From a virus, in IMG/VR virus record IMGVR_UViG_3300027674_000006, positions 1 through 46,140 of that record: a stretch of 46,140 bases of DNA, one strand, 5' to 3'. How positions within the stretch are numbered: position 1 is the stretch's first letter; the number at the start of each line of letters is the position of its first letter. The notes under the pieces were generated by a model. It did no database searches. It was given only the letters and a program-made list of their open reading frames with translations, and was not told the origin of the DNA. Both the position numbers and the translations under genes were made by a program. Positions 24,443-32,186 of the stretch are shown here, piece after piece.

Positions 24443-24899
24443 CGCCGCACTCCGCCCGATAGAACGCGAGATGGGTGCGCCACTCTTCCGGCATCAAGAG
24501 CCAGGCGAGATGCGCCGCGACCGCGGCATCGGCGCGCAACGGCCGCGACCCGGAGATTTCGATCATCCGCGCCCCGTCGGGCAGCGCGGTGATGCTCCAA
24601 TGGTCGACGATCGGCATCCGCCAGCGTCTGAGGCCGTGCGCGGTGCGCACCCAGACATCGACCGGCGCCCCGTCGGGGGCGCTTTGCGTAGGCGACAGCC
24701 GTGGCGGCTGCACGGGAGGCATGGGGGCGCTCACGTGCGACGTGGGGAGCACTCTCCCCTTTTCCACAGCGCCGCGCCCTACAATCTTCTGAGTCGGTTC
24801 GCTCACGGCTGACCCCCGCCGAAATACGGCGCGGATCCGCGCCATCGCGCGCGCCGTGCGCTCGGCCATGGTCAGCGGGGTGTTGTCGCCGCCTGCCAT
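24435..24899 (-). CDS. Early protein of unknown function
   Basis: A 154-residue protein taken from ATG 24899, which overlaps the stop of the Cro-like gene as TGATG. The N-terminal half is basic and low in structure (MAERTARAMARIRAVFRRGS, then a proline/serine-rich linker). The C-terminal half looks folded (VWVRTAHGLRRWRMPIVDHW, PEEWRTHLAFYRAE). No family is recognised. It is the second gene of the early operon. Confidence 0.6.
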   Translation of the reverse strand: MAGGDNTPLTMAERTARAMARIRAVFRRGSAVSEPTQKIVGRGAVEKGRVLPTSHVSAPMPPVQPPRLSPTQSAPDGAPVDVWVRTAHGLRRWRMPIVDHWSITALPDGARMIEISGSRPLRADAAVAAHLAWLLMPEEWRTHLAFYRAECGDG

Positions 24900-25126
24900 C
24901 AGGCCGCCTCCTCGCGCTCGCCGGCCGCGGCGGGCAGCGCCGGCAGGTCGTAAAAATCGTTCGGGCTGACCCGGCCGCCGGTCGCCAGATAAATCCGCAA
25001 CATCGTTGCCCTGCGCGGCACCCGGCCGTAGGCGAACTGGCGGGCCGCGGATTTCGTCACGCCGACGCGCCGCCCGGCCTCGGCCCAGCTCAATGTGCAG
25101 TCGGATATCCAATCGCCCCATTTCAC
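24899..25126 (-). CDS. Cro-like helix-turn-helix regulator
   Basis: A 75-residue protein from GTG 25126 with a GGGGAAG ribosome site. The helix-turn-helix reads LSWAEAGRRVGVTKSAARQFAYGRV, split over residues 12-36. It is the first gene of the leftward early operon and is divergent from the CI-like repressor with three operators between, as Cro is in lambda. It probably shuts off the repressor or tunes the early promoter. Confidence 0.75.
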   Translation of the reverse strand: MKWGDWISDCTLSWAEAGRRVGVTKSAARQFAYGRVPRRATMLRIYLATGGRVSPNDFYDLPALPAAAGEREEAA

Positions 25127-25156: not shown

Positions 25157-25185
25157 ATAGTGTCGGGTTTCGATACTAATGTCAA
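25157..25185 (-). promoter_or_regulatory. Leftward early promoter (PR-like)
   Basis: On the minus strand TTGACA (25185-25180) is followed after 17 bp by CACTAT (25162-25157). The first operator at 25160-25176 lies between and over these boxes, so repressor binding would block it. The predicted transcript begins about 25 nt before the Cro-like start. Confidence 0.6.
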
Positions 25186-25235
25186 GGGGTAGCGTGTCGG
25201 CTTCCGGGACTGCACAAGGTGTTGTTTTTCGACAC
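25160..25235. promoter_or_regulatory. Three-operator switch region (OR-like)
   Basis: Three 17-bp sites of the form GTRTCG-N5-CGAYAC lie between the divergent regulators. They are 25160-25176 (GTGTCG/CGATAC), 25194-25210 (GTGTCG/CGGGAC, imperfect) and 25219-25235 (GTGTTG/CGACAC, inside a perfect 7-bp AAGGTGT/ACACCTT palindrome). Centre spacings are about 34 and 25 bp. The arrangement resembles the lambda right operator. The sites are directly visible; binding is inferred. Confidence 0.75.
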
Positions 25236-25244
25236 CTTCAGTTG

Positions 25245-25664
25245 ATGACGACGCGCAGATTCCTCCTGCCCAGCGGCTATGATCCGTCGCGGCCCAACCG
25301 ATTGCGCGCCTTGCGACTTGAGCGCGGGCTATCGCTGGACGCGCTGGCCCAGCGGTGCGTGCCGCCCACCACTAAGGGGCAGATCGAAAAGCTCGAATGG
25401 GGGCCGCACCACGTGCATGGCGTGCGGATGGACATCATGTGGATGTATCGGCTGGCGGCGGCGCTCGACTGCCATCCCTCAGACCTCTTGCCCGACCTGC
25501 CGCCGACGATTTTGCCGCTGGCCGAGCGCGACCACCTGGAGCGCTATCGCGAGCTTGCCGAGCCTGATCGTGGCCTTGTCGAATCGGTCATCGAAGGCCG
25601 CCTCGCGGCGGTTAACCGAGCGAGCCAGGCGCCACCCCGGCGCCACGCTAAAAAGGGGCCATAA
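25245..25664 (+). CDS. CI-like repressor, short form
   Basis: A 139-residue protein in the XRE helix-turn-helix style: RPNRLRALRLERGLSLDALAQRC, split over residues 15-37, then a DNA-contact helix and LAAALDCHPSDLLPDLP. The C-terminus is short and basic, and no LexA-type peptidase domain is present, so SOS self-cleavage is not expected. The ATG at 25245 has no ribosome site and may be leaderless; TTG at 25242 and ATG at 25179 are in frame. It is the only plus-strand gene between the two operator groups. Confidence 0.78.
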   Translation: MTTRRFLLPSGYDPSRPNRLRALRLERGLSLDALAQRCVPPTTKGQIEKLEWGPHHVHGVRMDIMWMYRLAAALDCHPSDLLPDLPPTILPLAERDHLERYRELAEPDRGLVESVIEGRLAAVNRASQAPPRRHAKKGP

Positions 25665-25728: not shown

Positions 25729-25780
25729 GTATCGCAAACCGACACGTTTCGCTTGACAGGCTAGTCTCGCAACCCGATAC
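25729..25780. promoter_or_regulatory. Second operator pair (OL-like)
   Basis: Two more copies of the 17-bp operator lie downstream of the repressor: 25729-25745 (GTATCG/CGACAC) and 25764-25780 (GTCTCG/CGATAC), centres 35 bp apart. They flank and overlap the plus-strand promoter at 25753-25781. The same half-sites as in the first group indicate control by the same regulator. Confidence 0.7.
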
Positions 25781-25781
25781 T
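25753..25781 (+). promoter_or_regulatory. Rightward promoter (PL-like)
   Basis: TTGACA (25753-25758), exactly 17 bp, then GATACT (25776-25781). The second operator overlaps the -10 box and the first lies just upstream of the -35 box, so it should be repressed in the lysogen. It would drive the plus-strand genes from 26160, passing antisense through the secreted-protein gene at 25828-26118. Confidence 0.65.
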
Positions 25782-25827
25782 TCTCCCGTCACCCGCGGGA
25801 GGCCCGCCTTTGCCCGACCCAGCTGCG

Positions 25828-26118
25828 CTATTTCGCCTCGACCGACCATTTGCCGCCGTGGTTGGCGAGTTCGAACCGATACCGCATTCCGTTGCACCAC
25901 ACCGTCCAGCCCTCGCTGAACGCGAACGGCAGCATCTCGTCGACCGCGCGGCAATCGTAACCCAGGGCGTTGATCAGTTCGCGCGCCTCGTAAAGCTGCC
26001 CCGGCGTCGCATGACGGCTCGACCGTACCGGTTCGGGCTGCGCACCCGGCTGGCAGCGCTGCTGCAATGCCAGCCCTGCAAACATCGCAAGCACCATGAT
26101 TGCGGCCATCCAGCGCAT
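25828..26118 (-). CDS. Small secreted protein, probable moron
   Basis: A 96-residue protein with a strong GGGAGG ribosome site before ATG 26118. The N-terminal MRWMAAIMVLAMFAGLALQ is a signal peptide. The mature part has EARELINALGYDCRAVDEM, GWTVWCNGMRYRFELANHGGKW, with two cysteines that could pair. This pattern is that of small exported proteins common in rhizobia. It lies convergent to the repressor and antisense to the second operator-controlled promoter, and it may change lysogen properties. Function unknown. Confidence 0.7.
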   Translation of the reverse strand: MRWMAAIMVLAMFAGLALQQRCQPGAQPEPVRSSRHATPGQLYEARELINALGYDCRAVDEMLPFAFSEGWTVWCNGMRYRFELANHGGKWSVEAK

Positions 26119-26390: not shown

Positions 26391-26552
26391 CCCGGGCTTA
26401 ACCAAACAGCCTTCGGCGCAGACCGCGCCGGAGCGCCCCGGCTTCCAGCGCTCGGCGGACCGGATGGAAGCCGGGGCGAGCCATACCGAGACGGCAGCCC
26501 GGCGGCGCATCTGCCATCTCGCTCGAGTTTTTTCAGAGGAAGGAGAATGAGG

Positions 26553-26963
26553 ATGACCAAAGAAGACATGATCACCGCGGTCCGCCGCGAACTCGATTGT
26601 TCGCGCGAGACGGCGGCGTGCGTCGTCGACGCCCTGTTCGCCGAGATCGCGGCCCGGCTCGCCGCCGGCGACCGCATAACCCTGCCGGGGCTTGGTGTGC
26701 TCATTCCCGGGTTGACCCGCGGCGGCATCGGGCGCAACCCGGCCACCGGCGAGTCACTGATGCTGACGCCGAAGCCGACCGCCAAATTCAAGATGAAACC
26801 GGTGTTGCAGCGGACCCTCGCCGCCGCGATGGCACCGGAGCAGGAGGCGCCCGATCGCGGTGTTGTCGGCCATGGTCAATCTGGCCTCCGGTCCGGCCGG
26901 CGGCGATGCGCGGTCATGCCGTCCTTGCCCTCATGCTTAAACAGCGTCACCCGGCCGGGATGA
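26553..26963 (+). CDS. HU/IHF-family DNA-bending protein with extra C-terminus
   Basis: A 136-residue protein from ATG 26553, with AGGAGA seven bases upstream; ATG 26547 is in frame but too close. Residues 1-95 are a DNABII protein: TKEDMITAVRREL, FAEIAARLAAGDRITLPGLGVL, then the arm GRNPATGESLMLTPKPTAKFKM. The last 40 residues are low-complexity and not part of the fold. The stop overlaps the next start as ATGA. It may assist excision, replication or packaging, like IHF. Confidence 0.85.
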   Translation: MTKEDMITAVRRELDCSRETAACVVDALFAEIAARLAAGDRITLPGLGVLIPGLTRGGIGRNPATGESLMLTPKPTAKFKMKPVLQRTLAAAMAPEQEAPDRGVVGHGQSGLRSGRRRCAVMPSLPSCLNSVTRPG

Positions 26964-28039
26964 ATCGGCAAGAGCGCGAGTGGGCCGATGCGAGCTGGAA
27001 CCCGGTGCGCGCCCGCGATCGCGAGACCGGCAGGATCAGCTGGTTCTGCACCCATCTCAGCGAGGAGTGCCGGTTCTGTTGCCGCCTCGGTACCGGCATC
27101 GACTACCGGGCGCAGTACGCCGACCGGCTCGACATCTTCATCGACGACAGGATCCTCGCCTGGCCGCTGCACTGGCGCCGACCGTGGGTGTTCACGCTGT
27201 CGATGTCCGACCTGTTCTGCGAATTCATCCCCGACGCAATGATCGACCGGGTGTTCGCGGTCATGGCGCTGGCGCCGCAGCATACCTTCATAGTTCTGAC
27301 CAAACGCGCCGAGCGGATGCGGGATTACATGGGCACAGCAAAGCGCCTCGCGCTCGACGGCGTCGTGCACCATGAATGCCTCGAATATCGCGATCTCTGG
27401 GTGCCCCTGCCGAATGTCTGGCTCGGGGTCTCGGTCGAGGACCAGACAACCGCCGACGAGCGGATCCCCGAGTTGTTCGCGACGCCGGCCGCAGTGCGCT
27501 TCATCTCGGCCGAACCGCTGCTTGGGCCGGTCGATCTAACCGCATTGCGATTGCGCGACCCGCCGTCACCCGATTGGACTGAATGCCGTCGTGACGCTCT
27601 GCGCGGCCTTTTTAGCGGGTGCCCATTTTATAGCGCGGCCGATCTTTGCGCGGCCGAAGAACGTGGCCAAGAGCATCCGAACGACCGTCCAAGCGGCACG
27701 ATGCGCATCGAAGCCGGGCCGCATCTCAATTGGGTTATCGTCGGCGGCGAGAGCGGCCCCCAAGCGCGGCCGATGCACCCGGCCTGGGCGCGGAGCTTGC
27801 GCGACCAGTGCCTCGCCGCCAGCGTCCCGTTCTTCTTCAAGCAATGGGGCGAGTGGGCACCCGCCGCCGATTACGCATCCGAGACCCTCGAAGATTTGGA
27901 CGTTCGTGGTCTCACCGATGACGGGGTTGTCCGCGTCGGCAAGCGCGCCGCCGGCCGCCGGCTCGACGGCCGCGAATGGTCGGATTTCCCGGTGAAACAT
28001 GGCGCGCCCGGCATGAGTGCGCGTATCGGCGATGCCTGA
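26960..28039 (+). CDS. DUF5131 (phage Gp37/Gp68) family protein
   Basis: A 359-residue protein of the DUF5131 family. It has the family start SWNP, the cysteine pattern FCTHLSEECRFCC (Cys30, Cys37, Cys40), DLFCEFIP, FIVLTKRAERM, WLGVSVEDQ, RFISAEPLLGPVD, WVIVGGESGPQARPMHPAW and FFFKQWGEW. The three-cysteine set suggests a metal or Fe-S centre. The family is common on phages and integrative elements, and its biochemical role is not established. The ATG overlaps the HU-like stop. Confidence 0.92.
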   Translation: MNRQEREWADASWNPVRARDRETGRISWFCTHLSEECRFCCRLGTGIDYRAQYADRLDIFIDDRILAWPLHWRRPWVFTLSMSDLFCEFIPDAMIDRVFAVMALAPQHTFIVLTKRAERMRDYMGTAKRLALDGVVHHECLEYRDLWVPLPNVWLGVSVEDQTTADERIPELFATPAAVRFISAEPLLGPVDLTALRLRDPPSPDWTECRRDALRGLFSGCPFYSAADLCAAEERGQEHPNDRPSGTMRIEAGPHLNWVIVGGESGPQARPMHPAWARSLRDQCLAASVPFFFKQWGEWAPAADYASETLEDLDVRGLTDDGVVRVGKRAAGRRLDGREWSDFPVKHGAPGMSARIGDA

Positions 28040-28289
28040 GCCGGCGCGCACCCGGCCGGCGCGGCTGCTCTACACGGCGCGCGAGGCGGCAGAGCTGCTC
28101 AGCATGAGCACAAGGAGCCTCGCCGGGTTTGTCGCCGCCGGCGCGCTGCGCTATGTCCTGGTCGGCAAGCGCAAGCGGTTTGCGCCCTCCGACCTCGACA
28201 CCTTTATCGCCGCCCGGAGACAGCCCCAAGGGAGCATGGCATGGGTCTCTACCGCCGCCCCGACTCGCCCGGTATTATGGCGCAAGTGA
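28032..28289 (+). CDS. Excisionase-like MerR/HTH_17 protein
   Basis: An 85-residue protein from ATG 28032, overlapping the DUF5131 stop by 8 nt. LLYTAREAAELLSMSTRSL, GFVAAGALRYVLVGKRKRF and SDLDTFIAAR are the pattern of the HTH_17 excisionase-type domain. Such genes usually sit directly before the phage integrase and control recombination direction. Here the following integrase frame is broken, and the 3' end of this gene overlaps that remnant. Confidence 0.82.
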   Translation: MPEPARTRPARLLYTAREAAELLSMSTRSLAGFVAAGALRYVLVGKRKRFAPSDLDTFIAARRQPQGSMAWVSTAAPTRPVLWRK

Positions 28290-30939: not shown

Positions 30940-31977
30940 TCAATGCGTGCCGGCGAGCACACCGGACAGGTTGGCCAGCGTCGCGTCAGTGCGGCGCGGG
31001 ATAAGCGTCAGGACGTCGCCCGGGACAAACGATGCCGCGGTCCCCGAGAACGTCGCGGCCGTGCCGCCGATGGCAAAGGTCATCGTCGCGAAGTTGGTGC
31101 CATTCTGGGCGATGTCGAAGATCGTCTGCGCCGTCGCGGCGAGACCGGCGGTGCACAGGCTGCCGGTAAAATTGGTGACGAAATTGACGCTCTCGCCAAA
31201 GGTGTAGCGCTCGACCGGCGCGCCGATCTGCGGGATGCCGAGATACTGGAAGAGGATCGTGGCCGGCATCACCGCGCCGGCGCCGGTCAGGACATAGGTG
31301 TCGACGATGAGGCCGGCGAGCGATTGCAAGGCTTGCCCAAAGGTGTTGAAAGCCGGCAGTTTGACCGAGATCGTCTGGCCGATCAGGTTGGCCGGGTAGA
31401 CGTATCTGAACAGCGACGGGTCGTTCGGCCCGAACCGGGCGAACCCGGCGCCCGACGAGTGGGCGCCGATCGGCGTGCCATAGACGCCGCGGCGCAGCCG
31501 GGTCCCGAGGTTGTATTTGTAGGCGGCGGTCAGCGTCGCCGACTGGTAGCTGACCAGCTCGCCGGCGCAATAGCACAGCGTCGTGAAATTGTCGGCGTCG
31601 GTCGCCGTGCCGCCGAGCAGCTGCCCGAGGCTCTCGGTCAGGTCGACCGCCAGCGTGTCGACCGTGTCCGGGTCGCTGTGGCTGGCGAGATTGGCGCTCA
31701 GCACGCCCTGGCGCGCGCCCTTGTAGATCGTCCCGGCCAGCGCATAGGTGTTGCCGCTGAGCGAGACCCACGCCTGGCAGCCGCCCCAGTTGGCGCCGCC
31801 CGAGGCGATCATCCACACCTCGAGCGCGCCGCCGGAGAGCGCCGCCGGCGGCTCGAAGATGATCGGCGGGTTGGTGTTGCCGGGCGGCACCAGCATGTTG
31901 TAGCCGGCCCCGGCCGTCGTCAGCTTCGGGTACAAGGTCGCGGTGCCGACCCCGATCGGCGTGATTGTCCCGGTCAT
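30940..31977 (-). CDS. Tail hub/tip protein, second part
   Basis: A 345-residue protein resembling the C-terminal part of large phage tail hub proteins: IIFEPPAALSGGALEVWMIASGG, LCYCAGELVSYQSATLTAAYKYNLGTRLRRGVYGT, SFVPGDVLTLIPRR. In gene transfer agents and many rhizobial siphophages these regions are fused to the upstream hub domain; here they are split by a helix-turn-helix gene. The ATG overlaps the stop of that gene (ATGA). It should form part of the baseplate or tail tip. Confidence 0.78.
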   Translation of the reverse strand: MTGTITPIGVGTATLYPKLTTAGAGYNMLVPPGNTNPPIIFEPPAALSGGALEVWMIASGGANWGGCQAWVSLSGNTYALAGTIYKGARQGVLSANLASHSDPDTVDTLAVDLTESLGQLLGGTATDADNFTTLCYCAGELVSYQSATLTAAYKYNLGTRLRRGVYGTPIGAHSSGAGFARFGPNDPSLFRYVYPANLIGQTISVKLPAFNTFGQALQSLAGLIVDTYVLTGAGAVMPATILFQYLGIPQIGAPVERYTFGESVNFVTNFTGSLCTAGLAATAQTIFDIAQNGTNFATMTFAIGGTAATFSGTAASFVPGDVLTLIPRRTDATLANLSGVLAGTH

Positions 31978-32186
31978 CGCTCTTTAGCGTCCGCGATCAA
32001 TTGCAATCGCCGGCCACGCGGCAGTGCTCGAAACACACGAAGAAAAGCTGTGACCGGCCCCGGCACTCTCCGCTGTCCCGCGCACCACAAATTCACCGCA
32101 CGCGGGGTTACCTCGATCAGCCGTGCTAAATCCGTCTGCATCAGGCCCAACGCAGCGATCTCCGCGCGCAGCCGCTCGCCGCTCAC
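31974..32186 (-). CDS. Helix-turn-helix protein coupled between tail hub genes
   Basis: A 70-residue XRE-type protein: GLMQTDLARLIEVTPRAVNLW is the helix-turn-helix, followed by a basic PGPVTAFLRVFRAL. The GTG start overlaps the hub stop (GTGA) and the stop overlaps the next hub start (ATGA), so it is translated as part of the tail operon. A DNA-binding protein here is unexpected. It might regulate late genes or be a leftover of an insertion. Confidence 0.75.
   Translation of the reverse strand: MSGERLRAEIAALGLMQTDLARLIEVTPRAVNLWCAGQRRVPGPVTAFLRVFRALPRGRRLQLIADAKER

Follow-up and report, generated by a model that had tools for sequence, protein, structure and literature searches.

In the immunity region of phage lambda (cI, cro, OR1-3, OL1-3), the OR operators are spaced about 24 and 23 bp apart. 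An M78 peptidase cleaves the short XRE repressors of the DdrO/ImmR type. The immB region of N15 and phiKO2 has three operators in the interval from the repressor gene to cro and another two past the opposite end of the repressor gene; the repressor lacks the residues for RecA/LexA-type self-cleavage, and phiKO2 Cro binds only OR3 (PMC4997575). In Rhizobium phage 16-3, the operators of the C repressor are oL1, oL2, oR1, and oR2 (PMC12429752). Switches outside the enterobacterial lambdoid phages have been little studied.

The window analyzed here is an entire viral contig of 46,140 bases that carries terminase, portal, tape-measure, primase, and other phage genes, and its terminase has its nearest relative in a Bradyrhizobium phage, at about 50% identity. 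Judged from its sequence layout, the region compiled in Table 1 is very probably the immunity region, that is, the lysis-lysogeny switch, of a temperate siphovirus-type phage working like lambda, N15, or phiKO2. From left to right, it consists of the leftward Cro-like gene, OR1, a leftward -35 box, OR2, OR3, the rightward CI-like gene, OL2, a rightward -35 box, and OL1.

Table 1. Coordinates of regulator genes, predicted operators, promoters, and downstream features in the window.
Feature	Position	Strand	Sequence	Basis or remark
Cro-like regulator gene (75 aa)	24899-25126	-		GTG start; phrog_35 transcriptional repressor, E 8e-6
PR-like promoter toward Cro	25185-25157	-	TTGACA (25185-25180), 17 nt, CACTAT (25162-25157)	sequence
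OR1, predicted operator	25160-25176		GTGTCGGGTTTCGATAC	perfect, 0 mismatches
OR2, predicted operator	25194-25210		GTGTCGGCTTCCGGGAC	2 mismatches, both in the CI-side half
OR3, predicted operator	25219-25235		GTGTTGTTTTTCGACAC	1 mismatch; 9 bp ahead of the CI-like start codon
CI-like XRE repressor gene (139 aa)	25245-25664	+		HTH_31, E 0.0018; phrog_3, E 8e-5
OL2, predicted operator	25729-25745		GTATCGCAAACCGACAC	perfect, 0 mismatches; beyond the 3' end of the CI-like gene
PL-like outward promoter	25753-25781	+	TTGACA (25753-25758), N17, GATACT (25776-25781)	promoter scan
OL1, predicted operator	25764-25780		GTCTCGCAACCCGATAC	1 mismatch; over the spacer and -10 of the PL-like promoter
Short hairpin CTCCCG...CGGGAG	25783-25801	+	CTCCCGTCACCCGCGGGAG	start of the PL-like transcript
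HU-like gene	26547-26963	+		profile match
DUF5131 gene	26957-28039	+		profile match
HTH_17/excisionase-like gene	28017-28289	+		profile match

With at most one mismatch, the form GTRTCG-N5-CGAYAC occurs in only four places in the contig (expected 0.6), OR1, OR3, OL2, and OL1, all of which flank the single gene encoding the CI-like XRE repressor; the Poisson chance of four such sites within 621 bp is about 2e-10. The first-pass annotation had proposed a lambda-like three-operator switch, with three sites of this form between a Cro-like and a CI-like gene. Sites are present at all three positions, although only OR1 fits the form exactly, and a scan of the whole contig for equally good sites elsewhere returned only OL2 and OL1, which flank the same repressor gene. 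These two sites, missed in that annotation, are as good as the others and have their own promoter. The lambda-like switch between divergent regulators is well supported, but it comprises five sites in two groups rather than three operators, and its CI-like repressor lacks an S24 domain. The sites are spaced 34 bp (OR1 to OR2), 25 bp (OR2 to OR3), and 35 bp (OL2 to OL1) from start to start; the likeness to lambda OR1-OR3 that had been seen in the spacings and in an imperfect middle site is kept in the weakness of the middle site, but not in the distances. Exact copies of OR1 in two other viral contigs (L082 and L083) are single sites with no divergent regulator pair and were dismissed as chance matches.

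OR1 and OL1, together with their promoters, mirror each other: in both cases the operator lies over the -10 region of a promoter directed outward from the repressor gene, and the -35 box falls between the two members of the operator pair. OL1 is an inverted copy of OR1, with 17 of 20 bases shared between positions 25159-25178 and 25762-25781 (85% over 20 nt). As had been noted for the TTGACA-N17-CACTAT promoter, the first site does cover it, OR1 lying inside the spacer and over the -10 box. This -10 box is poor (3/6), and therefore the promoter scan did not list the PR-like promoter; the PL-like promoter was the only promoter-like site that the scan returned between 24800 and 26600. Among loci with related regulators, 10 of 16 have a -35 box matching TTGACA in at least five of six positions upstream of the Cro-proximal operator, and 9 of 13 have one upstream of OL1, both counts including the window, compared with 8.7% at random positions.

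Both regulators are, in structure models, HTH proteins of the 434/P22 type. The Cro-like protein, encoded by the first gene of the leftward (lytic) transcript, gave an AlphaFold model with a pLDDT of 92, whose best structural matches (TM 0.65) were phage repressors, among them P22 c2. For the CI-like protein, Pfam HTH models matched only below their cut-offs; its family profile matches the 434, P22, and DdrO repressors, with DdrO among the best sequence matches. The first 80 residues of its model fold like the DNA-binding domains of the 434 and P22 repressors, and the pLDDT of 78 makes the long C-terminal helix uncertain. No S24 peptidase domain was detected in this repressor or in any other protein of the contig. 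The CI-like frame is open from position 25179, within the operators, so that the start codon listed is a predicted one. No Shine-Dalgarno sequence is visible before this start, located a few bases past OR3, in the window, L005, L012, or the L021 group, which suggests that the CI-like mRNA may be leaderless, as in lambda.

Relatives of the CI-like protein were found in L012, L006, L007, and L005, but no close relative was detected in viral contigs or phage records, and a collection of bacterial genomes yielded one partial relative, that in L007. The comparison was therefore run through the Cro-like partner. A search with this family gave matches in 72 viral loci, and in many of these an HTH gene is encoded divergently. 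Operators were sought in each locus by a de novo palindrome search followed by scans with hand-set consensus sequences; motifs that the automatic motif finder returned for L036 and L037 (meaningless CG repeats) and for L006, L028, L029, L038, and L039 (noise) were left out. Because some of the loci, all of them uncultivated, nearly duplicate one another, the pooled distance test used a single representative for each operator type.

In L005, the operator GTTTC-N7-GAAAC is perfect at 2160, 2194, 2914, and 2972, with a weak site between the last two; the sites are laid out as in the window, with spacings of 25 + 33 bp between the genes and 34 bp beyond CI. L012, with the operator TATGTC-N7-GACATA, has 25 + 34 bp and a distal pair at 34 bp, and L021, L024, L025, L027, and L031, with RCACCA-N3-TGGTGY, have 26 + 34 bp; four of these five also have a distal pair, spaced 25 bp. 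Four families with unrelated operator sequences thus far show the combination of 25-26 and 33-34 bp in the Cro-CI intergenic region, and TTGAC usually precedes the operator that covers the promoter. OL pairs elsewhere are spaced 34-35 bp in L015 and L035, 33 bp in L040 and L051, and 31 bp in L009, L017, and L022. When 14 families were pooled, the best distances from the Cro-proximal site to a partner were 33-34 bp, followed by 58-60 and 78-79 bp. Exceptions to the 25 + 34 arrangement are L045 (25 + 25) and L040 (41 + 16), and in L015 and L008 no more than two strong sites were seen, at distances of 70 and 77 bp, respectively. The repressors of L005 and L025 contain an S24 domain.

The middle site is weakened on a defined side. 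Its mismatches in the CI-side and Cro-side halves number 2/0 in the window, 3/0 in L005, 2/1 in L012, 1/0 in L021 and L025, 2/0 in L024, L027, and L031, and 1/0 in L030 and L045. The CI-side half is degraded across unrelated operator sequences in the families where it can be read, an asymmetry that constitutes good but not blind evidence, the consensus having been set partly by hand. OR2, which would be doubtful alone, is supported because relatives with unrelated operators keep a weak site at the same distances.

For the window, we infer binding and its gradation, the proteins that bind, the filling order, cooperativity, autoregulation, and the target of the Cro-like protein in the following manner. 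The CI-like protein would bind both operator groups, on either side of its own gene. Bound to OR1 with help from OR2, it would block the leftward promoter of cro and of the replication and lytic genes, and bound to OL1 and OL2 the rightward outward promoter, so that in a lysogen both outward promoters would be closed by occupation of OR1/OR2 and OL1/OL2. The weak OR2 would be filled mainly through cooperation with OR1, which is 34 bp away and on nearly the same helix face, and OL1-OL2, at 35 bp, would be the counterpart pair. OR3, just upstream of the CI-like start codon, would serve autorepression at a higher repressor level, and the Cro-like protein, made first in lytic growth, would probably act at this site. 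Because the repressor has no S24 domain and a search of the contig for an M78 (ImmA-type) peptidase found none, induction by RecA-stimulated self-cleavage is unlikely, and another route, for example an antirepressor, is probably used.

The same arrangement can be read in other ways. A division of labor like that of N15 and phiKO2, with the CI-like protein binding all five sites and the Cro-like protein only the one adjoining the repressor gene, would give the region the look of lambda with a different way of working, and we consider this possible, if somewhat doubtful. In phiKO2, the same 3 + 2 sites go together with a repressor that lacks self-cleavage residues, and Cro binds OR3 alone (PMC4997575); the repressor in the window likewise has no S24 domain, and O3 is usually among the better sites in the relatives. 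However, the operator sequence differs, the specificity of the regulators is not readable from sequence, and the marks of these plasmid prophages, protelomerase (PF16684) and ParA, were searched for in the contig, which may be incomplete, and neither was matched. That OR is a two-site region (OR1 and OR3), with OR2 a chance half-site near the -35 box and not an operator, appears improbable. OR2 is two mismatches off the operator form, about eight such matches are expected by chance in the contig, and in several relatives no more than two of the intergenic sites are clear. The chance of a match at this spot, over 26 possible positions, is nevertheless about 0.008, which is weak evidence by itself, but the 25/34 placing recurs with other operator sequences in L005, L012, and the L021 group, where it is always the Cro-side half that matches better, and 33-34 bp is the best pooled distance.

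It is also conceivable, but quite unlikely, that the CI-like gene encodes an ordinary regulator of a lytic phage, such as a timer of early genes, and not a lysogeny repressor. This would agree with the lack of integration or partition genes among those found in the contig: searches of the whole contig matched no integrase/tyrosine recombinase, serine recombinase/resolvase, or rve transposase, and no CII activator (PF05269), absences that carry little weight in a contig that is possibly incomplete. As neither these nor a protelomerase or ParA was found, the lysogenic state gains no independent support from the contig. Operators that flank the repressor gene and cover two outward promoters are, on the other hand, the arrangement of an immunity region, several relatives carry S24-type prophage repressors at the same position, and the contig contains an excisionase-like HTH_17 gene. 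The last is an observation of its own, present as it is in a contig in which no recombinase, rve transposase, protelomerase, or ParA was matched.

The PL-like promoter would transcribe the HU-like, DUF5131, and HTH_17/excisionase-like genes. The first 12 bases of the hairpin at the start of its transcript are common to L035, where they are found in the same place. Other loci contain a structured RNA element of about 40 nt (TGATCGCCCNCGGGCCGAAGACG within a covarying outer stem), with seven pairs changed on both sides and 87% of cells paired (L021:599-643, L022:1724-1768, L023:1723-1767, L040:1666-1710, L085:689-733, L086:2183-2227, L087:653-697, L089:1901-1945, and L091:11114-11158). In four or more related loci the element comes immediately after the outward PL-like promoter-operator, and in the others it comes after promoter-like sequence. 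It may be a put-like antitermination or leader RNA; an Rfam search of three of the loci (L021, L022, and L040) found no match to it. The element is absent from the window, where the PL-like transcript begins with the different hairpin described above and an Rfam search gave no match. A small gene on the minus strand (25828-26118) is convergent with the repressor gene and runs antisense to the presumed PL transcript; its product has a signal-peptide-like N terminus and a weak match to a PHROG of unknown function, and the gene may serve in lysogenic conversion or exclusion. Among the tail genes, the minus strand carries a further small HTH gene of the Cro/YdaS-like kind (31974-32186).

A broader reading, possible if somewhat doubtful, is that a widespread phage group, probably mostly alphaproteobacterial, has a switch of five operators that conserves the spacing and the asymmetry of the half-sites while the operator sequence and the repressor type, with or without S24, are replaced. 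The conserved part would be intergenic distances of 25-26 and 33-34 bp, in many cases a distance of 34-35 bp at OL, and a middle site weakened on the CI side. If this holds, the repressor-repressor contact would be one helical turn longer than that of lambda and would work without an S24-type C-terminal domain. The comparative data predict that O1-O2 pairs 33-35 bp apart form a cooperative unit across phages with unrelated operators and that the weakening of the middle site is confined to one particular side; the repressor of this switch, moreover, is unable to self-cleave by the S24 route.

The layout is the lambda one, and the 3 + 2 count of sites around a repressor that does not self-cleave is that of N15 and phiKO2; the longer O1-O2 spacing is common to a set of relatives. 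With DdrO/ImmR repressors, the CI-like protein shares an HTH followed by a short helical C-terminal part and the lack of an S24 domain, but no M78 peptidase accompanies it in the contig. As in lambda, the CI-like and Cro-like HTH genes are divergent, three related operators (two good and one weak, the weak one being OR2) separate them, a second operator group lies beyond cI, each group overlaps an outward promoter, and cI starts near OR3 without a Shine-Dalgarno sequence. Unlike lambda, the window has an O1-O2 spacing of 34 bp, five sites instead of six, no S24 self-cleavage domain, and no CII, and because spacing and S24 were both tested and found to differ, the region is not lambda immunity in the strict sense. 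N15 and phiKO2 likewise have three OR and two OL sites around a repressor without self-cleavage residues; their operators are 16-bp TA-N10-TA sequences with OL upstream of repA, in contrast to the 17-bp operators of the window with OL ahead of the HU-like, DUF5131, and excisionase-like genes, and their prophage is a linear plasmid with a protelomerase, a trait not seen in this possibly incomplete contig. Phage 16-3, whose host is an alphaproteobacterium, likewise has repressor operators in oL and oR groups, but four named ones. The loci L005, L012, and the L021 group share the Cro-like family and nearly equal spacings, including the 34-bp OL pair in the first two; they differ from the window in their wholly different operator sequences, in the S24 domain of some repressors, and, for the L021 group, in the shorter distal pair.
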